From NCBI GenBank assembly GCA_947166385.1, contig CAMVEB010000004.1:1-64000 (forward strand): a stretch of DNA of 64,000 nucleotides, read 5' to 3'. The stretch comes from an uncultured Clostridia bacterium (GTDB lineage: Bacteria; Bacillota; Clostridia; Christensenellales; Aristaeellaceae). The notes below the pieces were generated by a model that made no database searches, was not told where the DNA came from, and saw nothing but the letters and a program-made list of their open reading frames with translations. Positions within the stretch are counted from its first letter, which is position 1, and each line of letters begins with the position of its first letter. Positions 8,594 through 22,530 of the stretch are shown here, one piece after another. The position numbers were made by a program, and so were the translations under genes.

Positions 8594-9097
8594 TCATGCC
8601 GCAATGTTGTGATGAACGATCCAGATTGCATCTTCCGGAAGCATGATCTTATCCATGCCTTTTCTGGCAATCCTGCGAAGCTGTTTCGGGCAAAGGTTAT
8701 CCACTTCTTTCGATATCTGAAGCCATTCATAGCCTTCCAGATAACGGAGGATCAGAATCGTCCGCTCTCTTCCGGAAGTATATTGATCCATCAGGCCGGA
8801 TGCCTGACTGATCAGTGACTGCAACAACATGATCCGGGCAGAAAGACGCTGACGCAGATCATCCCTTTTCTCCAGCCTGCGAACGAACGCAGCATCCGAA
8901 CGGGAAGAGGACTGCACCCTTGAATTCGAAAAAGCAGACGCGGAAGCAGGACTATAGGCACGGGCAGCAGCCTTCCGCAGCTGCCAGTTATGGTTATCTA
9001 GCTCCTCGTTTGCATGGGACAGCTGCTCCAGATACAATTCTACCAATGATTTCTTCCAGACCGGGGTCATTTTGTTTTCGCTTTTTTTCTCCTTCAT
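8594..9097 (-). CDS. DUF1492/ArpU-like phage regulator (copy A)
   Basis: This is a small basic, helical protein of 167 residues. An N-terminal coiled stretch ends near residue 45. A helix-rich core follows: RRLEKRDDLRQRL, then ARIMLLQSLISQASGLMDQY. The C-terminal part, ERTILILRYLEGYEWLQISKEV, resembles sigma region 4 as in phage DUF1492 and ArpU late-gene regulators. ATG 9097 has AGGAGG 8 bases upstream; a TTG just before it gives the longer frame. A broken second copy lies at 17900-18048. It is divergent from the leader RNA and small gene, so it is a good candidate to control them. Confidence 0.6.
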   Translation of the reverse strand: MKEKKSENKMTPVWKKSLVELYLEQLSHANEELDNHNWQLRKAAARAYSPASASAFSNSRVQSSSRSDAAFVRRLEKRDDLRQRLSARIMLLQSLISQASGLMDQYTSGRERTILILRYLEGYEWLQISKEVDNLCPKQLRRIARKGMDKIMLPEDAIWIVHHNIAA

Positions 9098-9198
9098 CAA
9101 TCACACCTCCTGTTCATCTTCAGCATTATTATATTTAAATTAGCATAAACTGTCAACGGTTTTTTGTATTAAATTTTATCAACAAATAAATTAAGTAC

Positions 9199-9227
9199 TT
9201 GTGTCCCGTTGAAATTTGTGATATGAT
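9199..9227 (+). promoter_or_regulatory. Promoter of leader RNA, copy A
   Basis: TTGTGT (9199-9204), 17 bases, TATGAT (9222-9227). Both boxes and the spacing are unchanged in copy B at 18130-18158, although several spacer bases differ. This supports a working promoter. Confidence 0.65.
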
Positions 9228-9233
9228 ACAGTT

Positions 9234-9306
9234 GCGGAACCGTGGGAACAGTTCCTGAAGAAAAGGCAATCACCGGCTGAAAACAAGCAGCCGGCGTTCT
9301 TTTTGC
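9234..9306 (+). ncRNA. Leader RNA with intrinsic terminator (copy A)
   Basis: Between the promoter and the small gene lies a stretch of about 70 nt with two hairpins. The first is GGAAC/GTTCC (around 9236-9254). The second is a strong CCGGCTG (9273-9279) with CAGCCGG (9288-9294), followed by a T-rich run ending at 9304. Copy B keeps both stems: the first has a G-U pair, and the loop of the second shrinks from 8 to 4 bases. Unchanged stems with variable loops point to a real RNA, either a small RNA or an attenuator for the gene at 9341. Confidence 0.55.
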
Positions 9307-9340
9307 CAGTCGATTCATATAAAAGAAAGGTGGTTCTACA

Positions 9341-9636
9341 ATGAGCGAAATTATTACCAACCAGAGCCCGAAGGAAACAGTCGACCGAAAAGCATCATCT
9401 GTTATTGAAGAAAAGATCGTATCTTTTAATGAAAAGCTAAAAAACCTTTGTGAAAAAACTGATGCTATATGCACACTGCTAGAAAACAAAATCGAGGAAA
9501 GAGATATCGACGAAACAAAACCGGCCGATACTTCAACGTAATAACCAGCGCGTACAGGCCCAAGGAACCGGATTATAAGGATCTTGGCAGAAAAATCATG
9601 GAAAAACGCAATCCAAATTATTCGCCTAAAGCCTAA
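9341..9636 (+). pseudogene. Small phage gene with internal deletion (copy A)
   Basis: The first 50 codons match the intact 145-residue gene at 18280 (MSEIITNQSPKE against MSELITNQHPKE, then a shared Glu/Lys-rich helix). At about 9508-9515 the sequence jumps to the region equal to 18590 onward. This removes roughly 165 bases and shifts the frame, so translation stops at 9541. The rest of the 3' end is still recognisable (ITSAYRPKE, then KIMEKRNPNY) in another frame. An AAAGGTGG ribosome site is kept before ATG 9341. Confidence 0.75.
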
Positions 9637-9648
9637 AATGTGAAATGA

Positions 9649-9678
9649 TAGACAAAAGCTTCATCCTCATGATAGAAT
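9649..9678 (+). promoter_or_regulatory. Candidate promoter of hsdRMS
   Basis: TAGACA (9649-9654), 18 bases, TAGAAT (9673-9678). It lies 58 bases before the GTG preferred for hsdR and just after the remnant small gene. Confidence 0.4.
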
Positions 9679-9735
9679 ACCCTTTGAACAGTTTTGATCA
9701 GGGAAAACAAAAAAGGATTCCGGGGAGTGATGATT

Positions 9736-12141
9736 GTGAGCCCGATTCTGGATAAATCTCAGATGACTGAAGAGGATATCAAGCTTCAGTTCATTACTCC
9801 TGCGATTATGGAAAAGTGGTCCAGAGACCTGATCACCATGGAAACCAGGATCACGGACGGAAAAATCAACCTGAAAGGGAACCTGGTCGTCCGGGAAAAG
9901 CCGAAGAAAGCCGATTATGTCCTCTATCTCCGGGCCAATCAGCCGATCGCGATCGTCGAGGCCAAGGATAACCACCACAGCGTTTCCCATGGCTTACAGC
10001 AGGCCATGACCTACGCGGTGATGCTGGATGTGCCGTTTGCCTACAGTTCCAACGGCGATGCCTTTTACGAGCATGATTTCCTGACCGGGAAAGAGCGGGA
10101 AATCCCGCTGGACGCGTTTCCGTCCCCGGAGGAGCTGAAGGCCCGCTTCCTGGGGGAGGTTCACGACGGCCAGGGCCTGACCGAAGCGGAACAGACCATC
10201 CGGGATCAGGCCTATTATTCCGGCACGAAAACCTATGTTCCCCGCTATTATCAGCGGAACGCGATCAACCGGGCGGTGGAAGCGGTCGCCAGGGGAGAAA
10301 AACGCCTGCTGCTGGTCCTGGCCACCGGCACCGGCAAGACCTATGTGGCTTTCCAGTCGATTTACCGCCTGATCACCAGCGGCCTGGTGAGGAAAGTTCT
10401 GTACCTGGCGGACCGGAATATCCTGGTGGATCAGTCCATTCAGCAGGATTTTGCCCCGCTGGAGAAGGTGATTCACAAAGTCAATTTTGCCAAGGATGAT
10501 CCGACCACCGTCACCTCCTACCAAGTGTATTTCTCCCTCTATCATCAGCTGTCCGGCAGGGAAGAGGAGGATGATGAGGACGAGAATGAAGAGGATACCG
10601 GGACGGAAAGCGATGTGCTGAAGCGCCTGTCCTCCCTTTTCCAGCCGGACTTTTTCGATCTGATTGTCGTGGATGAGTGCCACCGCGGTTCCGCCAAGAA
10701 GGACAGCCGGTGGCGAAAGATCCTGGAATACTTCTCTTCCGCCGCGCAGATCGGTATGACAGCGACCCCGAAGGAGACGAAATATATCTCCAATATCGAT
10801 TACTTCGGGGATCCGATCTATACCTACAGCCTGAAGGAAGGCATAGAGGACGGATTCCTGGCTCCCTTCAAGGTGATCAATGTCAAAACAAACATCGGGG
10901 AAGGCTGGCGGCCGTTCGCCGGCCAGAAGGATATCCACGGAAACCTCATTGAAGACCGGATATATACCAACAGCGATTATGACTATAACATTGTCCTGCA
11001 GGACCGGATCGATGAAGTCGCCGGAGAAATTACAGAATACCTGAAATATACCGACCGGATGCAGAAAACGATCGTCTTCTGCGCAACGGAGGAGCACGCG
11101 GAGCGGATGCGGGTCGCGCTGGTGAATCATAACGCGGATATGGTGCAGCAGAATCCGGATTATGTGGTCCGGATCACCGGCAGCGACGCCTACGGCAAAA
11201 ACAAACTGGATTATTTTATTTCCGTCTCTTCCCCGTATCCCGTCATTGCCACGACATCCAAGCTGCTGACCACCGGCGCGGACTGCAAAATGACCAAACT
11301 GATCGTGCTGGATCAGATGATCGGCTCCATGACGGAGTTCAAGCAGATCATCGGCCGCGGCACCCGCATCCGGGAAAAGGAAGGGAAGCTGTCCTTCGTC
11401 GTGATGGATTTCCGGAATGTGACCCGGCTCTTTGCCGATCCGGACTGGGACGGCCCCATCGAGCAGGATGAGGATTTTGATCCGAACCGTCATCCGGACG
11501 AAGGGAAAGAGAAGCCCCCGCAGCCCTGGCCGCCGGACGTAACGCCGAATCCGCCGCCGGTCCTGACGGAGAAGCCCATTGTGGATGAGAACGGCTGTCC
11601 GGTGAAGATTCTGGGGAAGATTGTCTCTGTCTACGATGCCAACGGAAAACTCCTCCGTCAGGAGAGCATTGTCGATTATACCAAGTCCAACATCCTGGGG
11701 CAGTATGCCTCCCTGGAGAAGTTCATCCGCCAGTGGACGCAGGAGGAGAAGAAGGAAGCCATCCGGGATGAGCTCCGGGAGAAGGGCATTGACCTGGATG
11801 CGATGAAAGCGGATCAGCATCTGGAAGATATCGATGATTTCGACTTTATCTGCCACGTGGCGTACGACAAAAAGCCGCTGACCCGGAAAGAGCGGGCCGG
11901 CAATGTCCGGAAGCGGGATTTCCTGAGCCGGTACAGCGGCGTGGCGAAGGAAGTTCTGGAGGCGCTGCTGGATAAGTATATGAACACCGGGATCTATGAG
12001 ATTGAAAAAACGGAGATCCTGAAGCTGGATCCCTTCAGCCGCTACGGCAAGCCCGCGAAGATCGCCCAGGCTTTCGGCGGGAAGGAAGGATACCTGCGGG
12101 CGGTCCGGGATCTGGAAAATGAATTGTATGAGGTTATGTGA
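9736..12141 (+). CDS. hsdR: Type I restriction enzyme, R subunit
   Basis: This is the motor and nuclease subunit of a type I restriction system of the EcoEI kind, about 801 residues. An N-terminal nuclease core ends in PIAIVEAKDN. Helicase motifs follow: ATGTGKT near residue 195, DECH in VVDECHRGS, GMTATP, and QIIGRGTRIRE (motif VI). An acidic, proline-rich linker then leads to the EcoEI_R C-terminal domain that docks on the methylase. GTG 9736 has GGGGAG 8 bases upstream; an ATG at 9730 and the frame start at 9694 are alternatives. Its TGA overlaps the hsdM ATG by one base. It cleaves DNA lacking the host methylation pattern after ATP-driven translocation. Confidence 0.93.
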   Translation: MSPILDKSQMTEEDIKLQFITPAIMEKWSRDLITMETRITDGKINLKGNLVVREKPKKADYVLYLRANQPIAIVEAKDNHHSVSHGLQQAMTYAVMLDVPFAYSSNGDAFYEHDFLTGKEREIPLDAFPSPEELKARFLGEVHDGQGLTEAEQTIRDQAYYSGTKTYVPRYYQRNAINRAVEAVARGEKRLLLVLATGTGKTYVAFQSIYRLITSGLVRKVLYLADRNILVDQSIQQDFAPLEKVIHKVNFAKDDPTTVTSYQVYFSLYHQLSGREEEDDEDENEEDTGTESDVLKRLSSLFQPDFFDLIVVDECHRGSAKKDSRWRKILEYFSSAAQIGMTATPKETKYISNIDYFGDPIYTYSLKEGIEDGFLAPFKVINVKTNIGEGWRPFAGQKDIHGNLIEDRIYTNSDYDYNIVLQDRIDEVAGEITEYLKYTDRMQKTIVFCATEEHAERMRVALVNHNADMVQQNPDYVVRITGSDAYGKNKLDYFISVSSPYPVIATTSKLLTTGADCKMTKLIVLDQMIGSMTEFKQIIGRGTRIREKEGKLSFVVMDFRNVTRLFADPDWDGPIEQDEDFDPNRHPDEGKEKPPQPWPPDVTPNPPPVLTEKPIVDENGCPVKILGKIVSVYDANGKLLRQESIVDYTKSNILGQYASLEKFIRQWTQEEKKEAIRDELREKGIDLDAMKADQHLEDIDDFDFICHVAYDKKPLTRKERAGNVRKRDFLSRYSGVAKEVLEALLDKYMNTGIYEIEKTEILKLDPFSRYGKPAKIAQAFGGKEGYLRAVRDLENELYEVM

Positions 12142-13619
12142 TGAGCAATTTATCGACGTTTGTCAAACGGGTGCGGGATATTATGCGCAACGACGCCGGC
12201 ATTAACGGTGACGCGCAGCGGATTGAGCAGATCGCATGGATGTTGTTCCTGAAGGTCTATGATGCCAAGGAACAGGACTGGGAATTCAACGAGGATGATT
12301 ATGAGTCCATTATTCCGGAAAACTGCCGCTGGAGCAGCTGGGCGGCGGATGATCATTCCGGCAGGGCTATGACCGGGGACACCTTGCTGAACTTTGTGAA
12401 TAACACGCTGTTCCCGACGCTGAAGAATCTGCCGGTCACTCCGGAAACCCCGATCAAGAAATCGATTGTCCGCACGACCTTTGAGGATGCCAATCAGTAT
12501 ATGAAGGACGGCGTCCTCCTGCGCCAGGTGATCAGCATCATCGATGAGCTGGATCTGACGGACACGGAGGAGAGCCACGCCTTCGGCGAAATCTATGAGT
12601 CCATCCTGCGGGAGCTGCAGAGCGCCGGCTCCTCCGGTGAATTCTATACGCCCCGGGCGGTGACGGATTTCATGGTGCAAATGATTCAGCCGAAGATCGG
12701 GGAGAAGATGGCGGATTTTGCCTGCGGCACCGGCGGGTTCATCACAAGCTGGCTGAAAGCGCTGGCCCCACAGATCAGGACGACGGAGGATCAGAAGGCT
12801 TACAGCGAGTCCATTTACGGCATTGAGAAGAAACAGTTCCCCTATATGCTCTGCGTGACGAACATGCTCCTGCATGATATCGACATCCCGCAGATATATC
12901 ACGATAACTCCCTTTCCCGGGATGTTCTGGATTACACCGAGGAGGACCGGACGGACGTCGTTCTGATGAATCCCCCTTACGGCGGTTCGGAGAAGGCGGA
13001 TATCAAGTCCCATTTCCCGGATGATCTGGCCTCCAGCGAAACGGCGGATCTTTTCATGTCCGTGATCATGTACCGGCTGAAGAAAACCGGCCGCGCCGCG
13101 GTGATTCTCCCGGACGGCTTCCTCTTCGGCACGGATAACGCGAAGATCAGTATCAAAAAGAAGCTGCTCAGCGAATTCAATCTGCATACGATCATCCGGA
13201 TGCCGTCCAGCGTGTTCTCCCCGTATACCAGCATTACGACGAATATCCTCTTCTTCGATCAGAGCAAGCCGACGGAAACGACCTGGTTCTACCGCCTGGA
13301 TATGCCGGAAGGCTACAAGCATTTCAGCAAAACAAAACCCATGAAGCTGGAGCATTTTGCCCCGGTCGTGGCCTGGTGGAACAACCGGCAGGAGATCACG
13401 GAAGACGGCTTTGACAAGGCGAAGCAGTTTACCGCCCGGCAGCTGTCCGAGGAGCTGGGATACAATCTGGATCAGTGCGGCTATCCCCATGAGGAGGAGG
13501 AAATCCTGGCCCCCATGGATCTGATCCAGCGATATCAGGAGGAGCGCGCCAGCCTGAACGCGGAAATCGACCGGGTGCTGGCGGAGATCACGGAGAAGCT
13601 GGGAGGTGTCCGGCCGTGA
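12141..13619 (+). CDS. hsdM: Type I restriction system adenine-N6 methyltransferase
   Basis: This is the modification subunit, 492 residues. An N-terminal helical HsdM_N domain is followed by the SAM-binding FACGTGGF near residue 192 and the catalytic NPPYGG near residue 276, the pattern of gamma-class N6-adenine methyltransferases. Two HsdM with one HsdS form the methylase; adding HsdR makes the restriction complex. Start ATG 12141 overlaps the hsdR stop (TGATG), and its own stop overlaps hsdS (GTGA). This tight coupling keeps subunit ratios. Length and motif order are normal. Confidence 0.95.
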   Translation: MSNLSTFVKRVRDIMRNDAGINGDAQRIEQIAWMLFLKVYDAKEQDWEFNEDDYESIIPENCRWSSWAADDHSGRAMTGDTLLNFVNNTLFPTLKNLPVTPETPIKKSIVRTTFEDANQYMKDGVLLRQVISIIDELDLTDTEESHAFGEIYESILRELQSAGSSGEFYTPRAVTDFMVQMIQPKIGEKMADFACGTGGFITSWLKALAPQIRTTEDQKAYSESIYGIEKKQFPYMLCVTNMLLHDIDIPQIYHDNSLSRDVLDYTEEDRTDVVLMNPPYGGSEKADIKSHFPDDLASSETADLFMSVIMYRLKKTGRAAVILPDGFLFGTDNAKISIKKKLLSEFNLHTIIRMPSSVFSPYTSITTNILFFDQSKPTETTWFYRLDMPEGYKHFSKTKPMKLEHFAPVVAWWNNRQEITEDGFDKAKQFTARQLSEELGYNLDQCGYPHEEEEILAPMDLIQRYQEERASLNAEIDRVLAEITEKLGGVRP

Positions 13620-15115
13620 CACCGCAGGAACTGAAAAACAGCATCCTTCAGCTGGCCATCCAGGGGAAGCTGGTGGAGCAGCGCCCGGAAGAGGGAACGG
13701 CGGAGGAACTGTATCAGCAGATTCAACAGGAAAAACAGAAGCTGATCCGGGAAGGGAAGATCAAGAAGGAGAAGCCGCTGCCGGAGATTACGGAAGAGGA
13801 AAAGCCGTTTGATATTCCGGAAAGTTGGAGATGGGTCAGAATGTCATCTATTATTGACATGCTATCGGGGTATGCATTTAAAAGTGATGATTTTAAATCG
13901 AATGGCAAATACAAACTACTTCGTGGTATTAATCTAGGCATTAACACAATACGATGGAAAGAAACAGTATATATCGATACAATTTCTGAGAAAATAGAAG
14001 ATTACAGACTGGAAAAAGGAGATGTCTTGCTTGGAATGGATCGCCCGTGGATAACTGGCGGAACAAGAGCAGCTCTGTTTTCCGGTGAAGAAGATGTTTA
14101 CTTAGTACAACGGGTATTGCGTTTTCGAAGTCATGGTTATATGAACAATACGTTTATTTTGCTGTTATTGCATTCTTCCTTAGTTAATTCAATTGGTGGA
14201 GAAACAACTGGTATCAGTGTTCCACATATTAGTCAGAGTCAAGTCGGATCTATAGCTATTCCCCTCCCACCCCTCGCAGAACAAAAACGCATCGTTGCCA
14301 AAATCGAAGAACTCCTCCCGCTGATTGACCGCTATGAAAAGGCCTGGAATCGCCTGGAAGCATTCAATAAGCGTTTCCCGGATGATCTGCAGAAATCCCT
14401 TTTGCAGATGGCCATCCAGGGAAAACTGGTTGAACAGCGGCCGGAAGAAGGAACCGGAGAAGAACTGTATCAGCAAATTCAGCAGGAAAAACAGAAACTG
14501 ATCCGGGAAGGAAAGATCAAGAAGGAGAAGCCGCTGCCGGAGATCACGGAAGAGGAAAAACCATTTGTTATTCCGGAAGGTTGGAAGTGGGTTAATATAC
14601 AGGAAATCATCACCGGAATTACTGCAGGAAAGAGTAGTAAATGCTATGAAATTGTTCCAGAAAATAATAAACCCGGGATTATTAAAGTAAGTGCTGTGAC
14701 ATGGGGCATATTTAATCAAAGAGAAAGCAAAACTTGTATTTTTGAAGACGATTGGATAGAAGAATATAGGATTCATTATGGAGACTTTTTAATCAGTAGA
14801 GCTAACACAAAAAAACTTGTTGGTGCTTGTGCAATTGTTAACTGCATAACTAAAAAACTTATGCTGTCTGACAAGATTCTTCGTATGGATTTTTATCCAC
14901 ATATTGATCCACGCTTTATACTATACATCTTAAGAAGTCCAGAACTCAGAAAACAGATTGAAGCAGTTGCTACTGGTACATCAGAGTCAATGAAGAATAT
15001 TTCTCAAAACAGTATAAAAGCTTTATTAGTCCCCCTCCCACCCCTCGCCGAACAAAAACGCATTGTCGCCCGTTTGGAAGAGCTTTTGCCGCTGTGCAAG
15101 AGCCTGAAATCATAA
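13616..15115 (+). CDS. hsdS: Type I restriction system specificity subunit
   Basis: This is the DNA-recognition subunit, 499 residues, built as two half-repeats. Each half has a conserved lead-in (QLAIQGKLVEQRPEEGT and the near-identical QMAIQGKLVEQRPEEGT), a target-recognition domain, and a conserved helix (PLPPLAEQKRIVAKIEELLP and the related PLPPLAEQKRIVARLEELLP). Each recognition domain (about 13840-14260 and 14595-15030) is clearly richer in A+T than the conserved parts. This suggests they were acquired or shuffled separately. The start is GTG 13616, with GGGAGGTG 7 bases upstream, overlapping the hsdM stop. The target sequence cannot be predicted by eye. Confidence 0.92.
   Translation: MTPQELKNSILQLAIQGKLVEQRPEEGTAEELYQQIQQEKQKLIREGKIKKEKPLPEITEEEKPFDIPESWRWVRMSSIIDMLSGYAFKSDDFKSNGKYKLLRGINLGINTIRWKETVYIDTISEKIEDYRLEKGDVLLGMDRPWITGGTRAALFSGEEDVYLVQRVLRFRSHGYMNNTFILLLLHSSLVNSIGGETTGISVPHISQSQVGSIAIPLPPLAEQKRIVAKIEELLPLIDRYEKAWNRLEAFNKRFPDDLQKSLLQMAIQGKLVEQRPEEGTGEELYQQIQQEKQKLIREGKIKKEKPLPEITEEEKPFVIPEGWKWVNIQEIITGITAGKSSKCYEIVPENNKPGIIKVSAVTWGIFNQRESKTCIFEDDWIEEYRIHYGDFLISRANTKKLVGACAIVNCITKKLMLSDKILRMDFYPHIDPRFILYILRSPELRKQIEAVATGTSESMKNISQNSIKALLVPLPPLAEQKRIVARLEELLPLCKSLKS
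13650..13835 (+). repeat. hsdS internal direct repeat, first copy
   Basis: This 186-bp segment matches 14406-14591 without gaps at a fixed offset of 756 bases, with scattered, mostly third-position changes. It encodes the conserved lead-in to the first recognition domain. Confidence 0.85.
14406..14591 (+). repeat. hsdS internal direct repeat, second copy
   Basis: Second copy of the 186-bp repeat, leading into the second recognition domain. A shorter repeat pair, 14261-14325 and 15032-15097, marks the ends of the two domains, so each domain is bracketed by homology. Confidence 0.85.
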
Positions 15116-15178
15116 ATATGAGGGAATCAGTTTGAAGTGCATGTGATGGAGAGGAAACCCGGAATCTTTGCAAGGCGC

Positions 15179-15207
15179 TTGACAAAGTGTTCATTTTTCT
15201 GTACAGT
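15179..15207 (+). promoter_or_regulatory. Promoter of the yefM-yoeB operon
   Basis: TTGACA (15179-15184), 17 bases, TACAGT (15202-15207). It sits 35 bases before the antitoxin start codon, which has AAGGAGGG before it. Confidence 0.65.
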
Positions 15208-15241
15208 TTTGATGACAGAATAGTGTAAGGAGGGTTTTCTG

Positions 15242-15487
15242 ATGGTCGCTGTGAACTATACTACTGTCCGAAATAATCTGAAAGAATTCTGCGATATGGC
15301 TACCGAGGACAATGAAACTGTCATTGTTACCAGGAAGGCGAACAAAAATGTGGTTATCGTTAGCCTGGAACGCTTTGATTTCATGGAAAAGGCCATTCGT
15401 AATTCGGAATATCTTGCCAAACTGGACCGGTCTTTTGATCAGCTCTATGCCGGCAAAGGGCATGAACATGAACTGATCGAGGATTAA
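15242..15487 (+). CDS. yefM: YefM-type antitoxin
   Basis: This is an antitoxin of the Phd/YefM family, 81 residues. It has the typical N-terminal DNA-binding fold (VNYTTVRNNLKEFCD), then ETVIVTRKANKNVVIVSLERF, and an acidic, likely unfolded tail that would bind and block the toxin. It should also repress its own promoter together with YoeB. The toxin gene begins 4 bases after its stop. The pair sits right behind the restriction system, which fits a module that stabilises the locus. Confidence 0.9.
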   Translation: MVAVNYTTVRNNLKEFCDMATEDNETVIVTRKANKNVVIVSLERFDFMEKAIRNSEYLAKLDRSFDQLYAGKGHEHELIED

Positions 15488-15491
15488 TGCC

Positions 15492-15746
15492 ATGAGAAAA
15501 GTATGGTCTGATGAAGCATGGGAAGATTATCTGTATTGGCAAACGCAAGACAAGAAAACGCTAAGAAAGATCAATGAACTGATCAAAGATATTGACAGAA
15601 ATGGTCTTCAGGGCGTAGGGAAATCCGAACCGTTGAAATACAGGCCTGGATGGAGCAGGCGGATTGATAAAGAAAATCGCCTTGTCTTTGATATCAAAAA
15701 CGGAGAATTGCTGATTGCGTCATGCCGCGGACATTACGAAGATTAA
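15492..15746 (+). CDS. yoeB: YoeB-type mRNA interferase toxin
   Basis: This is an 84-residue toxin of the Txe/YoeB family in the RelE superfamily, which cuts mRNA in the ribosomal A site. The family pattern is complete: WSDEAWEDYLYWQ at the start, KINELIKDI, then the catalytic core KYRPGWSRRIDKENRLVF, and the C-terminal CRGHY with the conserved His and Tyr. Length is normal and the gene looks intact. It is co-transcribed with yefM. Confidence 0.92.
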   Translation: MRKVWSDEAWEDYLYWQTQDKKTLRKINELIKDIDRNGLQGVGKSEPLKYRPGWSRRIDKENRLVFDIKNGELLIASCRGHYED

Positions 15747-15855
15747 GATCCTGGCCGGGGAATCCGTGGATAAGACCCAGCTCGAGGGCACGGTCATCTA
15801 TGTTTCAGCGAGCGAGGCTCTTGAACGGATCACTGCATTCTTGAATACTTTGTAA
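15745..15855 (+). pseudogene. Unidentified C-terminal coding fragment
   Basis: The frame following the yoeB stop reads KILAGESVDKTQLEGTVIYV and then SASEALERITAFLNTL before a TAA at 15853. It has the feel of a real protein C-terminus, with an even mix of residues and a final amphipathic helix, but there is no start or ribosome site. I cannot name the family. It probably marks a gene cut by the insertion to its left. Confidence 0.3.
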
Positions 15856-16017
15856 CAATATAGGCATAACACAATTCCCCCAGCGGCTATCATCACTGCC
15901 GGGCTTTTCTATTTCATAAACGATCGGCTATCACGCTGGCCGTTTTCTTAAATAACGAGAAGAAGGAGAATACGAATTCTTTCTTCATCATTGAAAGCTG
16001 TTCCAAATCTCGAAAAT

Positions 16018-16047
16018 TTGACATATACCGGTATCTTCCTTTATAAT
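16018..16047 (+). promoter_or_regulatory. MarR-gene promoter with operator palindrome in the spacer
   Basis: TTGACA (16018-16023), 18 bases, TATAAT (16042-16047). The spacer holds ATACCGGTAT (16025-16034), a perfect 10-bp palindrome between the two boxes. This is where a self-repressing MarR dimer would bind. Leader length before the TTG start at 16067 would be only about 13 bases. Confidence 0.6.
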
Positions 16048-16066
16048 ATCTCACGAGGTGAGAAAC

Positions 16067-16534
16067 TTGGCCGATGAGATATTCTATTCTGAAGCAGCAG
16101 CCTCCCTTATGAAACTGCTTGCCCGAACCCGCCAGAATCCGGATCTGAAAAATGTGCGAGAGATATCGATTGGGGAAAAAGGCGTACTGCTGTACCTCGT
16201 TTCGAGACCGGAAGGCGTCCATTCCGGAGAATTAAGCAAAGCGCTCGGAATCGGGTCCGGCGGTGTGGCAAACCTGCTTTCTGTCCTGGACAGAAAGAAA
16301 TATATAAGCCGGAATATAAGCCCGAAGGATCGCCGCATCATCATCGTTTCGATTACGGAAGCGGGGAAACAAGCGATAACCGATCTCCGCAGCCGGATTC
16401 AAACGCGGTTGGAAGATCTGCTAAAAGAGCTGGGAGAAGATGATACCCGCGAACTGATCCGCATTTATGAACGGATTGTCCGGATCAGCCATGACGGAAT
16501 CCCATCCGAACACACAGAGCAAAAAGGAGTTTGA
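16067..16534 (+). CDS. MarR family transcriptional regulator
   Basis: This is a winged-helix regulator of 155 residues. The DNA-binding part reads HSGELSKALGIGSGGVANLLSVL (recognition helix), followed by a wing with the family signature SPKDRRIIIVSIT. Helices at both ends form the dimer. TTG 16067 has GAGGTGAG just upstream; GTG 16058 would add three residues. The citrate synthase gene begins 1 base after its stop, so both are one transcript, and the palindrome in the promoter suggests control of the pair. The effector is not known. Confidence 0.85.
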   Translation: MADEIFYSEAAASLMKLLARTRQNPDLKNVREISIGEKGVLLYLVSRPEGVHSGELSKALGIGSGGVANLLSVLDRKKYISRNISPKDRRIIIVSITEAGKQAITDLRSRIQTRLEDLLKELGEDDTRELIRIYERIVRISHDGIPSEHTEQKGV

Positions 16535-16535
16535 A

Positions 16536-17894
16536 ATGGAAAAGAGAAACTATGCGGAAATAACGCCGGATATCGTCCGGCTGACGAATGTACTTGAGAG
16601 CAACGGATTAATCGACCGTGAACTGTATGATCGCTATCAGGTTAACCGTGGTCTGCGTGACCTGAACGGCAAAGGTATTCTGACCGGGCTGACGGAAATC
16701 AGCGAAGTCAACGGCCTGGACAAGGACGGAAAGCCCATCCATGGGGAACTGTTTTATCGCGGTTACAATATTCGGGACCTGGTGGACGGATTTCTTCAGG
16801 AAGGTCGGTACGGGTTCGAGGAAATCACATATCTGCTGCTATTCGGTTCACTTCCGGATCAGGAGCAGCTGAAAAGCTTTGAGCAACTGCTGGGCAGCTA
16901 CCGTTCGCTTCCCAATTCATTTGTCCGGGATCTTATCATGAAGGCGCCGAGCACCAACATCATGAATTCCATGGCGCGGAGCGTCCTTTCCCTGTACGCG
17001 TATGACAACAATCCGGACGATATCAGACTGCCGAACGCTCTCCGCCAGTGCATCCAGTTGATTGCCATGTTTCCTCAGCTGGCTCTGTACAGTTATCAGG
17101 CATATGATTACTACCGCACAGACAGCACCAGTTTCTTCATTCACGACCCGATCCCGGAACTCTCCACCGCGGAGAACATTCTGCATATGCTCCGGCTGGA
17201 CAGCAAATATACGCCAACAGAGGCAGCCGTACTGGACATGGCGCTGGTTCTGCATGCCGAGCATGGAGGCGGCAACAACTCCACCTTCACGACCCATGTG
17301 GTCACTTCCACCGGTACAGACACCTATTCCGCAATTGCCGCATCGCTGGGTTCTCTGAAGGGACCAAAGCACGGCGGCGCGAACATCAAAGTTGTCCATA
17401 TGTTCGACGAAATCAAGCAGAACGTGCGCGACTGGTCTGACGAAGACGAGATTACAGCGTACGTGCATAAAATTCTGAACAAGGAAGCCTTCGACCGCAC
17501 TGGGTTGATTTACGGAATCGGACATGCCATTTATTCCAGGTCGGATCCCCGGGCCGTAATATTCCGTCAGTTTGTTGAGAAACTCGCAAAGGAAAAAGGA
17601 CTTGATCAGGAATATAAACTTTATACAACTGTGGAAAAAGCCGCGCCGATGCTGATCAGCGCGCAACGAAAGATGTACAAAGGCGTCAGTGCAAACGTGG
17701 ACTTTTACAGCGGCTTTGTGTATCAGATGCTGGGGATCCCGGAAGAGCTTTTCACGCCAATTTTTGCAATTGCCAGAATTTCCGGATGGAGCGCTCACAG
17801 AATCGAAGAACTGATGAACGGGAACCGGATTATCCGTCCCTCATATAAAGCGGTGCAGAGTCAGCGGAAATATGTCAGAATGGAAGACAGGTAG
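16536..17894 (+). CDS. gltA: Citrate synthase
   Basis: Condenses acetyl-CoA and oxaloacetate to citrate; 452 residues. The catalytic His pair and Asp are present: HAEHGGGNNSTF (His near residue 240), GIGHAIYSRSDPRA, and NVDFYSGF near the C-terminus. The N-terminal GLRDLNGKGILTGLTEIS block and the length fit the long citrate synthases of Clostridia. AAAGGAG precedes the ATG, which lies one base after the MarR stop. In anaerobes the enzyme usually feeds glutamate synthesis through a partial cycle. No aconitase or isocitrate dehydrogenase is nearby. A 2-methylcitrate synthase cannot be excluded. Confidence 0.88.
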   Translation: MEKRNYAEITPDIVRLTNVLESNGLIDRELYDRYQVNRGLRDLNGKGILTGLTEISEVNGLDKDGKPIHGELFYRGYNIRDLVDGFLQEGRYGFEEITYLLLFGSLPDQEQLKSFEQLLGSYRSLPNSFVRDLIMKAPSTNIMNSMARSVLSLYAYDNNPDDIRLPNALRQCIQLIAMFPQLALYSYQAYDYYRTDSTSFFIHDPIPELSTAENILHMLRLDSKYTPTEAAVLDMALVLHAEHGGGNNSTFTTHVVTSTGTDTYSAIAASLGSLKGPKHGGANIKVVHMFDEIKQNVRDWSDEDEITAYVHKILNKEAFDRTGLIYGIGHAIYSRSDPRAVIFRQFVEKLAKEKGLDQEYKLYTTVEKAAPMLISAQRKMYKGVSANVDFYSGFVYQMLGIPEELFTPIFAIARISGWSAHRIEELMNGNRIIRPSYKAVQSQRKYVRMEDR

Positions 17895-17899
17895 CAGGT

Positions 17900-18048
17900 C
17901 AGCTCAATCAGTCCGGTGGCCTGACTGAGCAACGACTGCAACAACATGATACGGGCAGAAAGAAAGACGCTGACACAAATCATCCCTTTTCTCCAGCCTG
18001 CGAACGAACGCAGCATCCGGACGGGAAGAGGAATGCACCCTCCCTTCA
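17900..18048 (-). pseudogene. DUF1492/ArpU-like remnant (copy B)
   Basis: The reverse strand aligns with the gene at 8594-9097 over RPDAAFVRRLEKRDDL and SARIMLLQSLLSQATGL. It is broken in three ways. The C-terminal half is missing and joins the end of the citrate synthase gene. A 4-base insertion (GAAAGAAAGA against GAAAGA) shifts the frame. Most of the N-terminal part is deleted, so that TGCACCCTCCC runs into the promoter side. It cannot make a working regulator. Confidence 0.75.
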
Positions 18049-18129
18049 TCTTCAGTATTAAAATATTTAGACTGAAATAAACTGTTAACAACCAAAATAT
18101 TAAAATTATATTAAATGATAAAATAGCAC

Positions 18130-18158
18130 TTGTGTCCCATCAAAATTTGTGTTATGAT
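18130..18158 (+). promoter_or_regulatory. Promoter of leader RNA, copy B
   Basis: TTGTGT (18130-18135), 17 bases, TATGAT (18153-18158). The boxes are identical to copy A, with changes only in the spacer. Confidence 0.65.
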
Positions 18159-18164
18159 ACAATT

Positions 18165-18246
18165 GCGGAATCGTAGGAAGAGTTCCTGAAGAAAAATCCT
18201 GAAGAAAAGGCAAACACCGGCTGAATACAGCCGGCGTTCTTTTTGC
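18165..18246 (+). ncRNA. Leader RNA with intrinsic terminator (copy B)
   Basis: This is the counterpart of 9234-9306. The first stem is GGAAT/GTTCC with one G-U pair. A 13-15-base segment around TCCTGAAGAAAA is duplicated in tandem here. The terminator stem CCGGCTG (18217-18223) with CAGCCGG (18228-18234) is kept with a shorter loop and the same T run. It lies before the intact small phage gene and could regulate read-through into the portal and terminase genes. Confidence 0.55.
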
Positions 18247-18279
18247 CGGTCGATTCATTAAAAGAAAGGTGGTTTCACA

Positions 18280-18717
18280 ATGAGCGAACTCATTACCAAC
18301 CAGCACCCGAAAGAGGCAGACAACCGCAAAAAACTATCTTTTCAAGAAAAGGCAAAAATCATTTGTGAAAGACTTGATGTAATGATCAGACTGCTAGAAG
18401 AAAGAATCGAGGAAAAAGATATCGACGAGTGCATGGAGCTGATCATCACGACGGTTGAACATGCATCGGACCGCAAAGTAGCGCTTGATGCTGTGATGCA
18501 AGCGTTTCGCCCTGCCATCCGGGATATGGAGCCGGAGGACCGGCGACAGTGCTGCGCCAATATGGAAGCGGCCTTTTCACCCTTATATGGAAACAAAACC
18601 GGCCAGTTCTTTAACGGAATAACCAGCGCGTACAGGCCCAAGGAACGGGATCCCAGGGAACTTGGCAGAAGAATTATGGAAAAACGCAACCCGCATTATC
18701 GCCCAAAGGATAAATAA
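18280..18717 (+). CDS. Small phage protein of unknown function (copy B, intact)
   Basis: I do not recognise this 145-residue protein. It has a short polar N-terminus, a Lys/Glu-rich helical region (residues 20-48) ending in ERIEEKDIDECMEL, a second helical block around ASDRKVALDAVMQAF, and a basic C-terminus ending RNPHYRPKDK. AAAGGTGG precedes the ATG. It lies 18 bases before the portal gene in one direction, so it is probably part of the packaging operon. A deleted copy is at 9341-9636. Confidence 0.65.
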   Translation: MSELITNQHPKEADNRKKLSFQEKAKIICERLDVMIRLLEERIEEKDIDECMELIITTVEHASDRKVALDAVMQAFRPAIRDMEPEDRRQCCANMEAAFSPLYGNKTGQFFNGITSAYRPKERDPRELGRRIMEKRNPHYRPKDK

Positions 18718-18735
18718 GGAAGGAGAAGCATCTTT

Positions 18736-20139
18736 ATGAATAACCAGTCCATCAACCGACCCACAACAATTGACCCGGAAAGGTCACTCTTTGTGGATAT
18801 TCCTTTTCCGGAAAAAAAACCGGGCCCCCAGATGATCACTGTCCCCGCGCAGATTACGATGATGGCAAACGATGGATATGCCAACCAGCTGGCCAGCCTC
18901 GGCGCCTCTTCTCCGATCATGTCAGCCGGAACCTTCGTCCGATCCGGCCTGACCAGCCTGACAGAGGAACTGGCCGTTGCCTACCGGGAGTGCGCCATCG
19001 CCAAGCGGATTATTGATATGCCGAGCGAAGACATCACACGGGCCTGGTACACACTGACAAGCGCCCAGGTGGACGAGACAGATCTGAACAACCTGAAAGC
19101 GGTGGAGGCAAAGCACATCATTAAGCAGGAGCTGACGAACGGCATTCGATGGGCGCGCCTGTTCGGCGGAGCGATCGCCATTATGATCATCAAGGGAGAG
19201 GAAGACAGGATGGATCAGCCGCTGAACATCAATACCATTAAGTGCGGATTCTTCAAAGGACTGCTGGTAGCAGACCTGACACAGGGGATCACGCCATCCA
19301 TCGAGCTGGAGGACGATCTGGATGATCCGGATTTCGGGCTTCCGAAATACTACGATATCAATATGGAAATGGGAGAACTCCGAACCGCGCGGATTCATCA
19401 TTCCAGGGTGCTTCGGTTTACCGGGCGGGAGTTGCCGCACACGGAAACGGTCCGGAACAGCTTCTGGGGCGCGAGCGAACTGGAACACCCCTGGGACGAG
19501 ATCAGGAGATATCTTTCCACGTGCGAAAACATTGCCCAGCTTGTGTTCCAGGCCAATCTCATCACGCTGAAAATCGGAAATTTCGGATCGGACCTGGCAT
19601 ACGGATCCGACAGGTTGAAGCAATCGGTTGAACAAACCGTTCAGCAGGAAAACCGGATGCGGACTTCCTACGGCGTACAGATTCTCGGCGCAGAGGACTC
19701 CATGGAGAACCATTCCTACAGCTTCACCGGCATCGCTGACGTCAAGGAGTCCTTCATGATCGACGTGGCCGGGGCAGCGGAGATTCCCGCGACAAAACTG
19801 TTCGGCCGCAGCCCGCAGGGCATGAACGCCACCGGAGAAGAAGACCTGCGGAACTACTACGACATGATCGCCCAGCAACAGGAACGGATGCTCCGGCCGG
19901 CTCTGGAGAAACTGCTGCCGATTATGGCGATGAGCTGCTGGGGCTTTGTGCCGGACGATCTGAAGATCGTATTCAATCCGGTGATGACAAGAAGCCCGGA
20001 AGAAAGCGCCAGAATCTCCAAAGATATCGCCGATGAGATCATCGCCCTGGTGAACAGCGGACTGATTACCATCGAGGAAGGGCGGGCCGAACTGGCCAGA
20101 AGAGGAAAGCAGCTGGGCAACTGGGGGAACATCGCATGA
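18736..20139 (+). CDS. Phage portal protein (DUF1073 family)
   Basis: This 467-residue portal protein resembles the Phage_portal_3/DUF1073 family, which forms the dodecameric ring at the capsid vertex through which DNA enters. Features are the early ECAIAKRIIDMPSEDITR helix, LFGGAIAIMII, RVLRFTGRELP, and the late PATKLFGRSPQGMNATGEED signature. Length is normal. GGAAGGAGAAG lies about 7 bases upstream of ATG 18736. The stop overlaps the terminase start (ATGA). Proteins of this family are sometimes labelled anti-CBASS Acb1 in databases; the length and motifs here suit a portal. Confidence 0.82.
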   Translation: MNNQSINRPTTIDPERSLFVDIPFPEKKPGPQMITVPAQITMMANDGYANQLASLGASSPIMSAGTFVRSGLTSLTEELAVAYRECAIAKRIIDMPSEDITRAWYTLTSAQVDETDLNNLKAVEAKHIIKQELTNGIRWARLFGGAIAIMIIKGEEDRMDQPLNINTIKCGFFKGLLVADLTQGITPSIELEDDLDDPDFGLPKYYDINMEMGELRTARIHHSRVLRFTGRELPHTETVRNSFWGASELEHPWDEIRRYLSTCENIAQLVFQANLITLKIGNFGSDLAYGSDRLKQSVEQTVQQENRMRTSYGVQILGAEDSMENHSYSFTGIADVKESFMIDVAGAAEIPATKLFGRSPQGMNATGEEDLRNYYDMIAQQQERMLRPALEKLLPIMAMSCWGFVPDDLKIVFNPVMTRSPEESARISKDIADEIIALVNSGLITIEEGRAELARRGKQLGNWGNIA

Positions 20140-21386
20140 GCGATATCGCGGAAATCATCGAGTTCTATGTGGAACACCCGGAGGAGCTGGGGCGGCAGGT
20201 CGGATTCAAAGACCTGACGCCGATGCACGGGGAATGGATCCGGGAGATGATCAACGGAGAGGGCGATTATACCCTGCAGGCGCACCGGGGAAGCTACAAA
20301 TCCTCCTGCCTGGCGGTGGCGATTGCCATGCTGATGATCCTGCGGCCGAAGCGGAACATCATTTTCCTGCGGAAGACCGACAGCGACGTGGCCGAGATGC
20401 TGGGAATGGTCAGCAAGATCCTGCGGCAGCAGATGATGGGAGATCTTGTATCCCGATACTGGCGCAAGCCGCTGGTGATCCTGAGCGAATCCGCAAGCCA
20501 CCTGAGCACCAACCTGTGGCAGTCGCCGATGGGCGCGCCGCAGCTGCTGGGGCTGGGCATCCGCAGCTCCATTACCGGGAAACACGCGTTCTATGTGATC
20601 ACGGATGATATCTGCAACAAAGACGACCGGGAAAGCCGGGCAGAGCGGGAGCGGACCAAGAAACAATACGACGAGCTGCAGAACATCCGGAACAAGGGCG
20701 GGCGGATTATCAACCTTGGTACGCCTTGGCACAAGGACGACGTATTCACCAAGATGCCAAACATCCACCAATACGACTGCTACCAGACCGGGCTGATCAC
20801 AAAGGAGCAACTGAACCAACTGCGGCAGAGCATGGCACCAAGCCTGTTCGCCGCGAATTATGAGCTGAAGCACATCGCCTCCTCGGAACTGATCTTTGAA
20901 ACGCCACCGCGGTTTACGGATGATCCGCTGACGCTGCGGGACGGGATCGCCCATGTGGACGCCGCCTACGGCGGCAGCGATTATACGGCCTTCACCTGCG
21001 GCCGACGGGACTGGGACAACGACATCATCTATCTGTACGGAAAGATCTGGCACAAAGCGGTGGACAAGGTGATGGAACCCATCATCGAGGACGCGCAGCG
21101 GCTGATGTGCGAGCCGATCAAATGCGAGAAGAACGGAGACAAAGGCTTCCTGATCCGGGAGTTCTTCGAACGGGGTGTTTATGCCTCCGGATATACGGAA
21201 TCGCAAAACAAATTTGTCAAAATATGCACCTATCTGAAGAAGTGGTGGCCGAGGATCATTTTCCTGGAAGGAACCGATCCGGAATATATTGACCAGATTC
21301 TGGACTATACAGAAAACGCGGAGCACGACGACGCGCCGGACAGCGCGGCATGCGTGTGCCGAATCCTTGAAAAGGGATACCGATAA
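20136..21386 (+). CDS. terL: Phage terminase large subunit
   Basis: This is the packaging motor and nuclease, 416 residues. The ATPase part has a Walker A-like AHRGSYKSS near residues 48-56 and a Walker B block FYVITDDI near 150-158. The nuclease part begins with HVDAAYGGSDYTAF near residue 271, the first acidic site of the RNase H-like fold, and ends with EHDDAPDSAA, a typical terminal acidic site. Overlap with the portal stop implies translational coupling. The order portal then terminase is the reverse of the usual one, and no small terminase, capsid or tail gene is in view. Confidence 0.85.
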   Translation: MSDIAEIIEFYVEHPEELGRQVGFKDLTPMHGEWIREMINGEGDYTLQAHRGSYKSSCLAVAIAMLMILRPKRNIIFLRKTDSDVAEMLGMVSKILRQQMMGDLVSRYWRKPLVILSESASHLSTNLWQSPMGAPQLLGLGIRSSITGKHAFYVITDDICNKDDRESRAERERTKKQYDELQNIRNKGGRIINLGTPWHKDDVFTKMPNIHQYDCYQTGLITKEQLNQLRQSMAPSLFAANYELKHIASSELIFETPPRFTDDPLTLRDGIAHVDAAYGGSDYTAFTCGRRDWDNDIIYLYGKIWHKAVDKVMEPIIEDAQRLMCEPIKCEKNGDKGFLIREFFERGVYASGYTESQNKFVKICTYLKKWWPRIIFLEGTDPEYIDQILDYTENAEHDDAPDSAACVCRILEKGYR

Positions 21387-21404
21387 GAAAGGAAGGGAAA
21401 GAAA

Positions 21405-21683
21405 ATGGATAAGAACGAAAGGGAACAAATGAACGAGATCAAGGAGCAGATGAACCGGGAATGCATTCAAATGCTGCCGGGGGCTCTTGACGCGCTGGGA
21501 GACATTATCGACGATCCGAGCATCAATCCGATTGCCCGGGTTCAGGCGATCGCCCTGATTATGGACCGCGGAATGGGCAAACCGGAGGAGAGCATCCGGA
21601 TCCGGAACGCGGAAGATGACATGGAGGCGGCGCAGGAACGGCTGGACGCCATTTTTGCCAAAGTCAGCCAGAAGCAAGAATGA
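21405..21683 (+). CDS. Small phage protein of unknown function
   Basis: This is a 92-residue, strongly helical and charged protein. Its middle (LDALGDIIDDPSINPIARVQ) and end (ERLDAIFAKVSQ) recall small DNA-binding or terminase-associated proteins, but I cannot place it in a family. It starts 18 bases after terL with GAAAGG...GAAAG before its ATG and belongs to the same transcript. A role in packaging is a guess from position. Confidence 0.5.
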   Translation: MDKNEREQMNEIKEQMNRECIQMLPGALDALGDIIDDPSINPIARVQAIALIMDRGMGKPEESIRIRNAEDDMEAAQERLDAIFAKVSQKQE

Positions 21684-21693
21684 GCGTGGCAGA

Positions 21694-21725
21694 AAAAAAG
21701 TTCCTCTCGAAAAAAGTTCCTCTCG
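21694..21725 (+). repeat. Perfect 16-bp tandem repeat
   Basis: AAAAAAGTTCCTCTCG occurs twice back to back (21694-21709 and 21710-21725), just after the 92-residue gene. It looks like a recent duplication in the short gap before the next gene. Confidence 0.9.
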
Positions 21726-21771
21726 AAAATGTTTCGCCAATCAGACACAGAATGAAAGGAGGCGACCGGCC

Positions 21772-22332
21772 ATGCTGACACAGGATCCGGTGAAGATCCC
21801 CGATATTCCCCAAAGAATCCGGGTGAAGGAAAAAGACGGTCATTCATATGTCCAGTATTTAGCCGCGCGTCCGTATGACGCCGATAAGAAATATGTCATT
21901 CCGAACTGGGTGAATATCGGCAAACAGGCTGAGACAATGCCCGGCCTGATGTATCCCAACGATAACTATGAAAAGATTTTCTGCAGGGAGGATGAGCAGA
22001 TGGAAGAAAACATGACGGCCGAGGAGGCGCAGTATGTGCAGGAGAACGCAACATACGGAATGTACGCTCCTTTTTTCACAGGACTGTACAACGAATTCAA
22101 ACAGCAGACGCGGAAGAAGGCGGATGAACCGATCAACCGGTACAAAGCGGAGAACATCAACAAGGTGCTGCTGCCGCTGAGGGACATGATGAAAGGCGAG
22201 GATTACGCAGAACTGCTGGGCCTGATCAGCACCGCGGAGGACGGGGAAGAAGGCATGAACTACGGCGATGTGATGATCCTGCTGACCCAGTACAAGAGCG
22301 CTCTAACCAAATTCCACAGAAACCACAAGTAA
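21772..22332 (+). CDS. Phage-related protein of unknown function
   Basis: I do not recognise the family. The 186-residue protein has an N-terminal beta-rich part (RIRVKEKDGHSYVQYLAARP, then KKYVIPNWVNIGK) that could be a small SH3-like or Tudor-like fold. An acidic helical middle and a C-terminal helical stretch with LLPLRDMM and ILLTQYKSALTKFH follow. ATG 21772 has AAAGGAGG upstream; the open frame begins earlier at 21616 but overlaps the preceding gene. It is the last gene of the island before the terminator and tRNA-Ser. Confidence 0.6.
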   Translation: MLTQDPVKIPDIPQRIRVKEKDGHSYVQYLAARPYDADKKYVIPNWVNIGKQAETMPGLMYPNDNYEKIFCREDEQMEENMTAEEAQYVQENATYGMYAPFFTGLYNEFKQQTRKKADEPINRYKAENINKVLLPLRDMMKGEDYAELLGLISTAEDGEEGMNYGDVMILLTQYKSALTKFHRNHK

Positions 22333-22363
22333 AAACCGGTTATCCACGAAAGATAACCGGTTT
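22333..22363 (-). terminator. Terminator of tRNA-Ser
   Basis: A perfect 12-bp stem (AAACCGGTTATC with GATAACCGGTTT) has a 7-base loop. On the reverse strand it is followed by a run of T, so it ends tRNA-Ser transcription. It may also stop the phage operon coming from the left. Confidence 0.7.
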
Positions 22364-22367
22364 GCGA

Positions 22368-22458
22368 TGGCGGAGAGTTAGGGATTTGAACCCTAGGTGA
22401 GGTATCACCCCACACACGATTTCCAGTCGTGCGCCTTAGACCACTCAGCCAACTCTCC
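22368..22458 (-). tRNA. tRNA-Ser (GGA)
   Basis: A 91-nt class II tRNA with a long variable arm. The acceptor stem GGAGAGT pairs with ACTCTCC. The anticodon stem CACGA/TCGTG encloses CTGGAAA, giving anticodon GGA. The T arm carries GGTTCAAATCC. The 3' CCA is encoded (TGG at 22368-22370). The phage island ends right beside its 3' end, a common integration site. Confidence 0.95.
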
Positions 22459-22530
22459 ACACTATGGTCACGGACAATTATTATATATTCTTTCCTCCAT
22501 TTGTCAAGAGTGAAAATCAAAGAAGAAAGA

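Follow-up and report, generated by a model that had tools for sequence, protein, structure and literature searches.

The 64,000-nucleotide stretch analysed here (the window; positions 1 to 64,000 of contig CAMVEB010000004.1, assembly GCA_947166385.1) comes from an uncultured Clostridia bacterium of the Aristaeellaceae, referred to below as the source genome, and carries two related heads of phage origin, copies A and B, with different genes behind them (Table 1). Behind head B lies a packaging gene set, whole from its promoter onward, that fills only about 4.4 kb between the citrate synthase gene gltA and a tRNA-Ser gene; it consists of a small gene, genes for a portal protein and for the large and small terminase subunits (TerL and TerS), a tandem DNA site and a gene for a protein named gp200. 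No coat, tail, integrase or replication gene was found among the genes between gltA and tRNA-Ser, and B is thus not a complete prophage, which would bring coat, tail and integrase genes. Coat-less packaging cassettes form a family in gut Clostridia to which B belongs, and among the matches listed from the open-access literature there was no paper on cassettes of this kind.

Matches to the small protein of B were found in 15 of the 61 genomes searched, and in 13 of these the match is between its C-terminal part, in most cases residues 67-143 or so and in some a longer stretch, and the end of open frames of 412-553 residues. Three aligned frames from the source genome (C18, C23 and C25) are protease/scaffold proteins of the DUF2213 type or can be aligned with one, the C23 frame having an N-terminal DUF2213 domain (160 bits), and the small protein is therefore read as a scaffold-like part without the protease. 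The gp200 gene is best read from 21772, and searches of PDB and BFVD with the structural model of its product (pLDDT 86.6) gave no match with an E value of 0.001 or below. Some segments of gp200 have matches within longer frames of 425-589 residues in G034:C79, G018:C3, G004:C39 and G004:C1. When B was compared with its relative in G013, the ratio dN/dS was 0.11 for TerL, 0.14 for gp200, 0.16 for TerS and 0.18 for the portal gene; these four genes are under purifying selection.

The gene order of B (small gene-portal-TerL-TerS-gp200) recurs at G013:C21, which has divergent helix-turn-helix (HTH) and ArpU genes and, on its left side, a type I restriction-modification (RM) set whose methylase and specificity subunit were recovered by PADLOC, with no hit at E 1e-40 for the large subunit. 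Similar sets were found in G004:C19, in G014:C66 (a 4.6-kb contig in which the portal frame is broken) and in G034:C147, which has no small or portal gene and reaches the contig end; by eye, the leader of this last cassette is doubled in tandem (L145 2187-2720). A second layout, TerS-TerL-gp200, is present in G004:C52, G034:C169, G011:C44, G012:C9 and G002. In a TerL tree of 33 rows, the six rows with TerL-TerS-gp200 (B, four relatives and an IMG/VR contig) group in a single clade (98/96), and the five rows with TerS-TerL-gp200 in another (100/100); two portal-protease prophage loci, G016:C32 and G034:C178, adjoin the first clade, and the other rows fall elsewhere. The tree left out two partial rows (G014:C48 and IMG/VR L071), the VR69 row was trimmed by match coordinates, and six rows belong to no group. 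The second layout as first labelled, with seven rows including G067:C19 and G013:C32, is not monophyletic, and its five-row core is.

Divergent HTH and ArpU genes stand at five loci in four other genomes. Among 45 genomes of the genus, HTH genes of the family occur in six. Of the eight strong matches, five are next to a cassette; the other three are orphans that have other genes beside them and no packaging gene. Ten neighbour genes of the cassettes were compared with PHROGs. At G011:C44 the neighbours are phage-like, a helicase loader and a phosphohydrolase; matches were also obtained for a helicase-like gene beyond the G013 RM set, for an AraC-type gene (named by eye) at G004:C52 and for one gene at G034:C147, the last two being of kinds common in hosts. 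Transfer RNA genes for Ser, Met and Trp lie beside cassettes. Integration at tRNA ends was considered and rejected, since no tRNA was found at L140, L142, L143 and L144 (all TerS-TerL-gp200), L147 has one only at a distance, and a search for a repeat of a tRNA end found none. A mirror gene order was likewise dropped as a sign of a new element because the portal gene precedes the terminase genes in phage-like operons (G013:C32 and IMG/VR contigs). At L157, L158 and L248 we saw repeated TerS-TerL or TerS-TerL-TerS-gp200 arrays, which suggest shuffling of terminase genes.

The tandem site is a direct pair, GTTxxxCTC-N7-GTTxxxCTC, that was present in all 12 cassettes compared, between TerS and gp200 at seven loci and directly behind gp200 at five. 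The triplet takes six forms over these 12 loci and is equal in both repeats at every one of them (expected 3.7; 0 of 200,000 shuffles). The 40 prophage or syntenic-cluster loci examined (682 kb) contained no site pair. The same held for nine loci, two of them included in the 40, in which the terminase or gp200 genes are arranged otherwise. A pattern scan of 2.3 Mb of loci (at least 3 kb each, overlaps included) gave 19 hits, namely the 12 loci, a third repeat at G011:C44, a G013-like IMG/VR record, four short copies and one orphan. With a slightly narrower pattern, which misses G034:C169 owing to its spacer, the 45 genomes yielded 22 matches, spread over 10 of them, and the control gave none; 11 lie at cassettes (9 genomes), 4 at short copies and 7 elsewhere. 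Three of these last seven have a promoter- and hairpin-like stretch upstream by eye, and some lie in repeat-rich intergenic DNA. The orphan site at G004:C47, with a promoter-like stretch, stands directly before a gene without a Pfam hit. Such off-cassette sites would fit either short elements of other lineages or a regulatory role. Given its position and paired variation, we regard the tandem site as a candidate packaging-start (pac/cosB-like) site.

Four elements of about 300 bp in the source genome (C2, C17, C13 and C47) keep only the leader and the site. In C2, C17 and C13 the leader is joined to the 3' end of terS, with starts on the terS side within three bases of each other, and in C47 to the stretch just behind terS; the end lies within a few bases of the gp200 start in all but C13, which stops a little sooner. 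These short copies may be spread deletion derivatives or remnants. One short copy has a tRNA-Arg gene beside it. Beside the short copy C47 (L033 46-6189) are two sets of three consecutive tyrosine-recombinase-like genes, named by the look of the sequence.

Eight leader copies were aligned: A, B, the four short copies and C44 in the source genome and one in G013. They share a TTGTGTCCCATC-like box, least conserved in C44, a TATACT-like -10 element and a hairpin with T-rich sequence behind it. For six leaders, fold z-scores range from -1.7 (A) to -4.9 (G013), the fold being clearly better than shuffles for B (z -3.0) and not for A. Terminator-like matches in the region (23, with 15.7 expected from shuffles) are only mildly raised, so that the scan alone is weak proof. 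In the relatives and in copy A, a promoter of the B type diverges from the regulator genes. The leader looks like an attenuated promoter that would be off by default and would need activation or antitermination.

Comparison of the window with itself by blastn joined A and B in three pieces of 73-88% identity (8787-8920 with 17904-18041, 88% over 138 columns; 9113-9513 with 18045-18428, 73% over 415; 9512-9637 with 18590-18714, 84% over 126), confirming the claim of the initial annotation that the two heads are related, phage-derived and alike in layout. The ACTTGTGTCCC box, the -10 element TATGAT and the terminator stem CCGGCTG/CAGCCGG are identical in both, the small genes begin MSEIITNQ and MSELITNQ, and the relatedness of the heads does not depend on the terminator scan or on leader folding. 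As had also been claimed, each copy is damaged in a different part: the reverse-strand regulator is complete in A and reduced to a remnant of about 138 bp in B, and the small gene is whole in B and broken in A, where about 160 bp of its middle are deleted. A is a second copy that is broken and probably dead. Its regulator is 70% identical in amino acids to the G013 homologue (dN/dS 0.17). The DUF1492/ArpU-like label given to it earlier gains a PHROG 36 match, while no Pfam or NCBIfam hit was obtained for A itself, and the ArpU/RinA profile PF07374 fell below its cut-off for the relative in L142. The cargo had been given correctly as hsdRMS with yefM-yoeB behind A and portal and terminase genes behind B, the latter now resolved into TerL and TerS; two corrections were required, the gp200 start given above and the reading of the small gene as a scaffold-like C-terminal part. 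That A and B are one prophage split by a simple insertion was rejected because regulator, leader and small gene are represented in both and the two differ by 12-27%. An old tandem prophage, taken in the plain sense, does not fit either, since no coat, tail or integrase gene is seen with B and the coat-less set recurs in other species; behind the head elsewhere stands a coat-less packaging cassette, and B is not a normal prophage late operon.

Table 1. Positions of the features of copies A and B within the window.
Feature	Position	Strand	Evidence
ArpU/RinA-like regulator, intact, 168 aa, copy A	8594..9100	-	PHROG 36 'transcriptional regulator', E 2.4e-11
Sigma-70 promoter, perfect match TTGACA-17-TATAAT, reading into the A regulator	9128..9156	-	promoter scan
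Copy A leader: ACTTGTGTCCC box, -10 TATGAT, hairpin terminator 9273-9294 upstream of first gene	9197..9294	+	fold z -1.7
Copy A small scaffold-like gene, ~160-bp deletion	9341..9637	+	blastn
hsdR, hsdM, hsdS, type I RM behind head A	9694..15115	+	PADLOC REase_I, MTase_I, Specificity_I
yefM-yoeB type toxin-antitoxin pair	15242..15746	+	Pfam PF02604, PF06769
Regulator remnant, copy B	17904..18041	-	88% to 8787-8920 over 138 columns
Copy B leader: ACTTGTGTCCC box, -10 TATGAT, hairpin terminator 18217-18234	18129..18234	+	fold z -3.0
Small protein, 145 aa, like C-terminal scaffold part of DUF2213 protease/scaffold proteins	18280..18717	+	sequence comparison
Portal protein	18736..20139	+	PF06381, 329 bits, E 3.4e-98
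TerL	20136..21386	+	PHROG 38, E 1.2e-68
TerS	21405..21683	+	PHROG 10899, E 6.7e-8
Tandem 16-bp-period site GTTCCTCTC-N7-GTTCCTCTC, candidate pac/cosB-like packaging-start site	21700..21724	+	position, paired variation
gp200, 186 aa, N-terminal beta part and long helices	21772..22332	+	no family at E 0.001
tRNA-Ser(gga), right bound of B	22368..22458	-	

Between A and B lie a MarR-type gene and gltA, whose citrate synthase is present in 9 of the 45 genomes, the source genome counted. In the examined flanks of 29 other rluB loci no cassette match was found, and the position of B is empty there (the names rluB, proA and smpB were assigned by eye, and the Pfam match of the first is to a pseudouridine synthase). 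Inside hsdS there is a 215-nt direct repeat (13622-13836 and 14378-14592, 84%), as is expected in two-domain specificity subunits. Defence genes also lie near other loci: type I RM at A and G013:C21; ThsA and a large gene with only a sub-threshold NACHT match in G002; a DrmD-type (DISARM-like) gene set at C25 of the source genome (L165-L166, L036), within about 38 kb between terminase-portal and protease-coat genes; and BrxC with two PglX (BREX) upstream of a prophage-like cluster at C18 of the source genome (L170). With the exception of A, these genes stand beside phage-derived genes and not behind the leader. It is well known that phages carry defence genes or have them as neighbours, and such a pattern is not in itself new.

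Coat genes that could serve B are at hand. The source genome has three, and relatives of the C23 coat gene occur in 31 of the 45 genomes (21 of them with one match) and in 12 of the 13 near-complete ones. The order TerS-TerL-portal-protease/scaffold-cement-coat-tail recurs as a syntenic cluster, with host genes of the opposite strand in between, in G002 (L141/L159/L160), G036 (L226-L227), G023 (L228-L229) and G008 (L232-L233), and the G023 cluster TerL is of the PBSX family (198 bits, cut-off 105). Distances between the coat genes correlate with those between their hosts (Mantel r 0.67, p 0.0001, n 19; of 24 coat loci given, 19 genomes had a full coat gene and rluB-proA, and without the source genome r was 0.68, n 18). 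With its spread through the genus, its synteny in four genomes and this correlation, the cluster is conserved by descent across the taxon, as expected of a gene transfer agent (GTA); it looks domesticated and GTA-like, a candidate GTA of the genus. The same cannot be said of the cassette, which with its site is found in only 9 of the 45 genomes, its place being empty in the examined flanks of the 29 other genomes. No neighbours matching the syntenic host genes were found at the three coat loci of the source genome. In G010:C40 (L239-L240), G011, G001, G004:C57, G063 and L178 the coat gene is not whole, being split or truncated near codons 101-128. The two halves in G010 are separated by about 21 kb that include two large serine recombinases (Pfam), and similar recombinases were seen by eye near the truncated coat gene of an IMG/VR contig.

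Overall, we tentatively favour, at a probability of about 0.43, the reading that B is a satellite-like packaging cassette living off coat protein made elsewhere in the cell. Regulators would release the attenuated promoter and turn on the cassette genes; the scaffold part and the portal would enter procapsids built of coat protein from a resident prophage or from the genus-wide PBSX/GTA-like cluster; TerS would bind the tandem site and TerL would fill the shells with DNA starting at the cassette, by which the cassette and its neighbours could become transferable. The elements of about 300 bp would then be leader-plus-site derivatives or remnants. As in satellites, there is no coat gene of its own; an integrase with an att site and replication genes of its own were not found, and because it brings a portal protein and TerL and is without integrase and replication genes, we do not file the cassette as a phage-inducible chromosomal island. 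A wider scheme, in which the portal, scaffold part and sequence-specific terminase of B act in trans on tandem sites (that of B and those of the four short elements) and load chosen chromosome stretches, defence genes included, into the coat shells of another element, is improbable.

Several observations weigh against a coat-borrowing cassette. Besides the missing integrase and replication genes, there is no repeat of the tRNA end in 15700-22480, and no att site was found; the small gene is the least constrained of the set (dN/dS 0.41, B against G013); four of the seven off-cassette sites have equal triplets, and the site may be regulatory; and G067:C19 and G013:C32 carry portal-TerS-TerL-gp200 without a tandem site. 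Most genomes are fragmented, and a free-standing state is not proved at G014:C66 and G034:C147, which reach the contig end, or at G011:C44, where the cassette converges on the phage-like genes. In IMG/VR L069/L070 the cassette stands behind a tail and lysis operon at the contig end, as the end of a prophage would.

L069/L070 and G011:C44 are the strongest evidence for the second-ranked reading, that the cassettes are right-hand ends of decayed prophages, in which a late operon ending lysis-small gene-portal-TerL-TerS-gp200 lost its middle in several lineages and left the leader and the packaging end. The phage-like genes at G011:C44 led us to lower the satellite reading slightly and to raise this one, which is possible but less probable. 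Portal-terminase-gp200 genes also close the tail operon at G013:C32, the short elements have leader and terS 3' end side by side as a deletion would leave them, and A is broken. Intact frames at dN/dS of 0.11-0.18 speak against decay, as do the divergent HTH and ArpU genes in four other genomes, a single TerL clade for each gene order, the absence of the tandem site from the 40 prophage and syntenic loci and the position of G012:C9 near a ribosomal L4 gene.

Ranked third, and unlikely, is a dispersed GTA operon whose cassettes are alternative portal/terminase modules of the genus PBSX/GTA-like cluster. GTA-like packaging is reported for gut Firmicutes, and in the available part of PMC12946183 the Faecalibacterium system is described as two operons about 125 kb apart; in G002 the cassette lies about 116 kb from the cluster, and the synteny of the cluster and the Mantel correlation agree with such a system. 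The cluster has its own TerL, however, site-bearing cassettes occur in 9 of the 45 genomes, and the coat loci of the source genome are without the syntenic host neighbours. It is very unlikely that the portal, scaffold part and terminase are decoys made to spoil the assembly of infecting phages. The set is coat-less, regulated and near defence genes, but TerL is conserved along its whole length, including stretches that we take to be the ATPase and nuclease motifs, which a decoy would not need, and the tandem DNA site is conserved as well. Defence by blocking assembly is described in the available text of PMC10884400. Least probable as a general reading is the proposal of the initial annotation, a reusable regulatory head that receives defence or packaging genes by exchange: hsdRMS and yefM-yoeB behind A, the three orphan HTH genes, an orphan site beside other genes and the defence genes beside the G013, G002, C25 and C18 loci speak for it, but we set it low because six of the seven regulator heads with genes behind them (A, the remnant head B, G013:C21, G034:C147, G011:C44, G004:C52 and G034:C169) carry packaging genes, restriction and toxin-antitoxin genes standing only behind A, whose small gene is broken; at the other loci, defence genes stand beside the head rather than behind it.

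If the coat-borrowing reading is right, the tandem site would let packaging specificity be read from sequence, and the genus-wide cluster of rumen and gut Clostridia, as a possible shell donor, would extend the few GTA-like systems reported in Gram-positives, of which PBSX and FpGTA are named in the part of PMC12946183 available. The closest annotated phage TerLs, 54-55% identical over 95-96%, include those of Enterococcus phiFL2A and phiFL4A, which come from phages of about 36-38 kb, unlike B. Like SaPIpT1028, P4 with its Sid protein and the PLE satellites, as described in the accessible portions of PMC12409344, PMC7552001 and PMC10945586, B is a small element of the chromosome that has a capsid-assembly protein of its own and would need a foreign coat; in contrast to them it adds a portal and TerL, with no integrase or replication gene found in its 4.4 kb. 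The Streptomyces satellites Mulch and Flayer (PMC10690885, in part) also encode encapsidation machinery, whereas B has no coat or tail gene. Since the satellites named bring either a capsid-assembly protein or complete encapsidation genes, a scaffold part with a portal and a whole terminase but no coat would be a different division of labour. FpGTA and PBSX share with B phage-derived packaging genes in separate operons of gut Firmicutes; operon I of FpGTA, so far as the available text of PMC12946183 goes, holds coat and terminase together, while B is patchy and coat-less. Finally, the R1-R3 repeats of lambda cosB (PMC4669245, in part) are likewise repeated TerS-binding sites near terS that set packaging specificity, whereas the site of B, a candidate from sequence alone, is a direct pair with a 16-bp period between terS and gp200.

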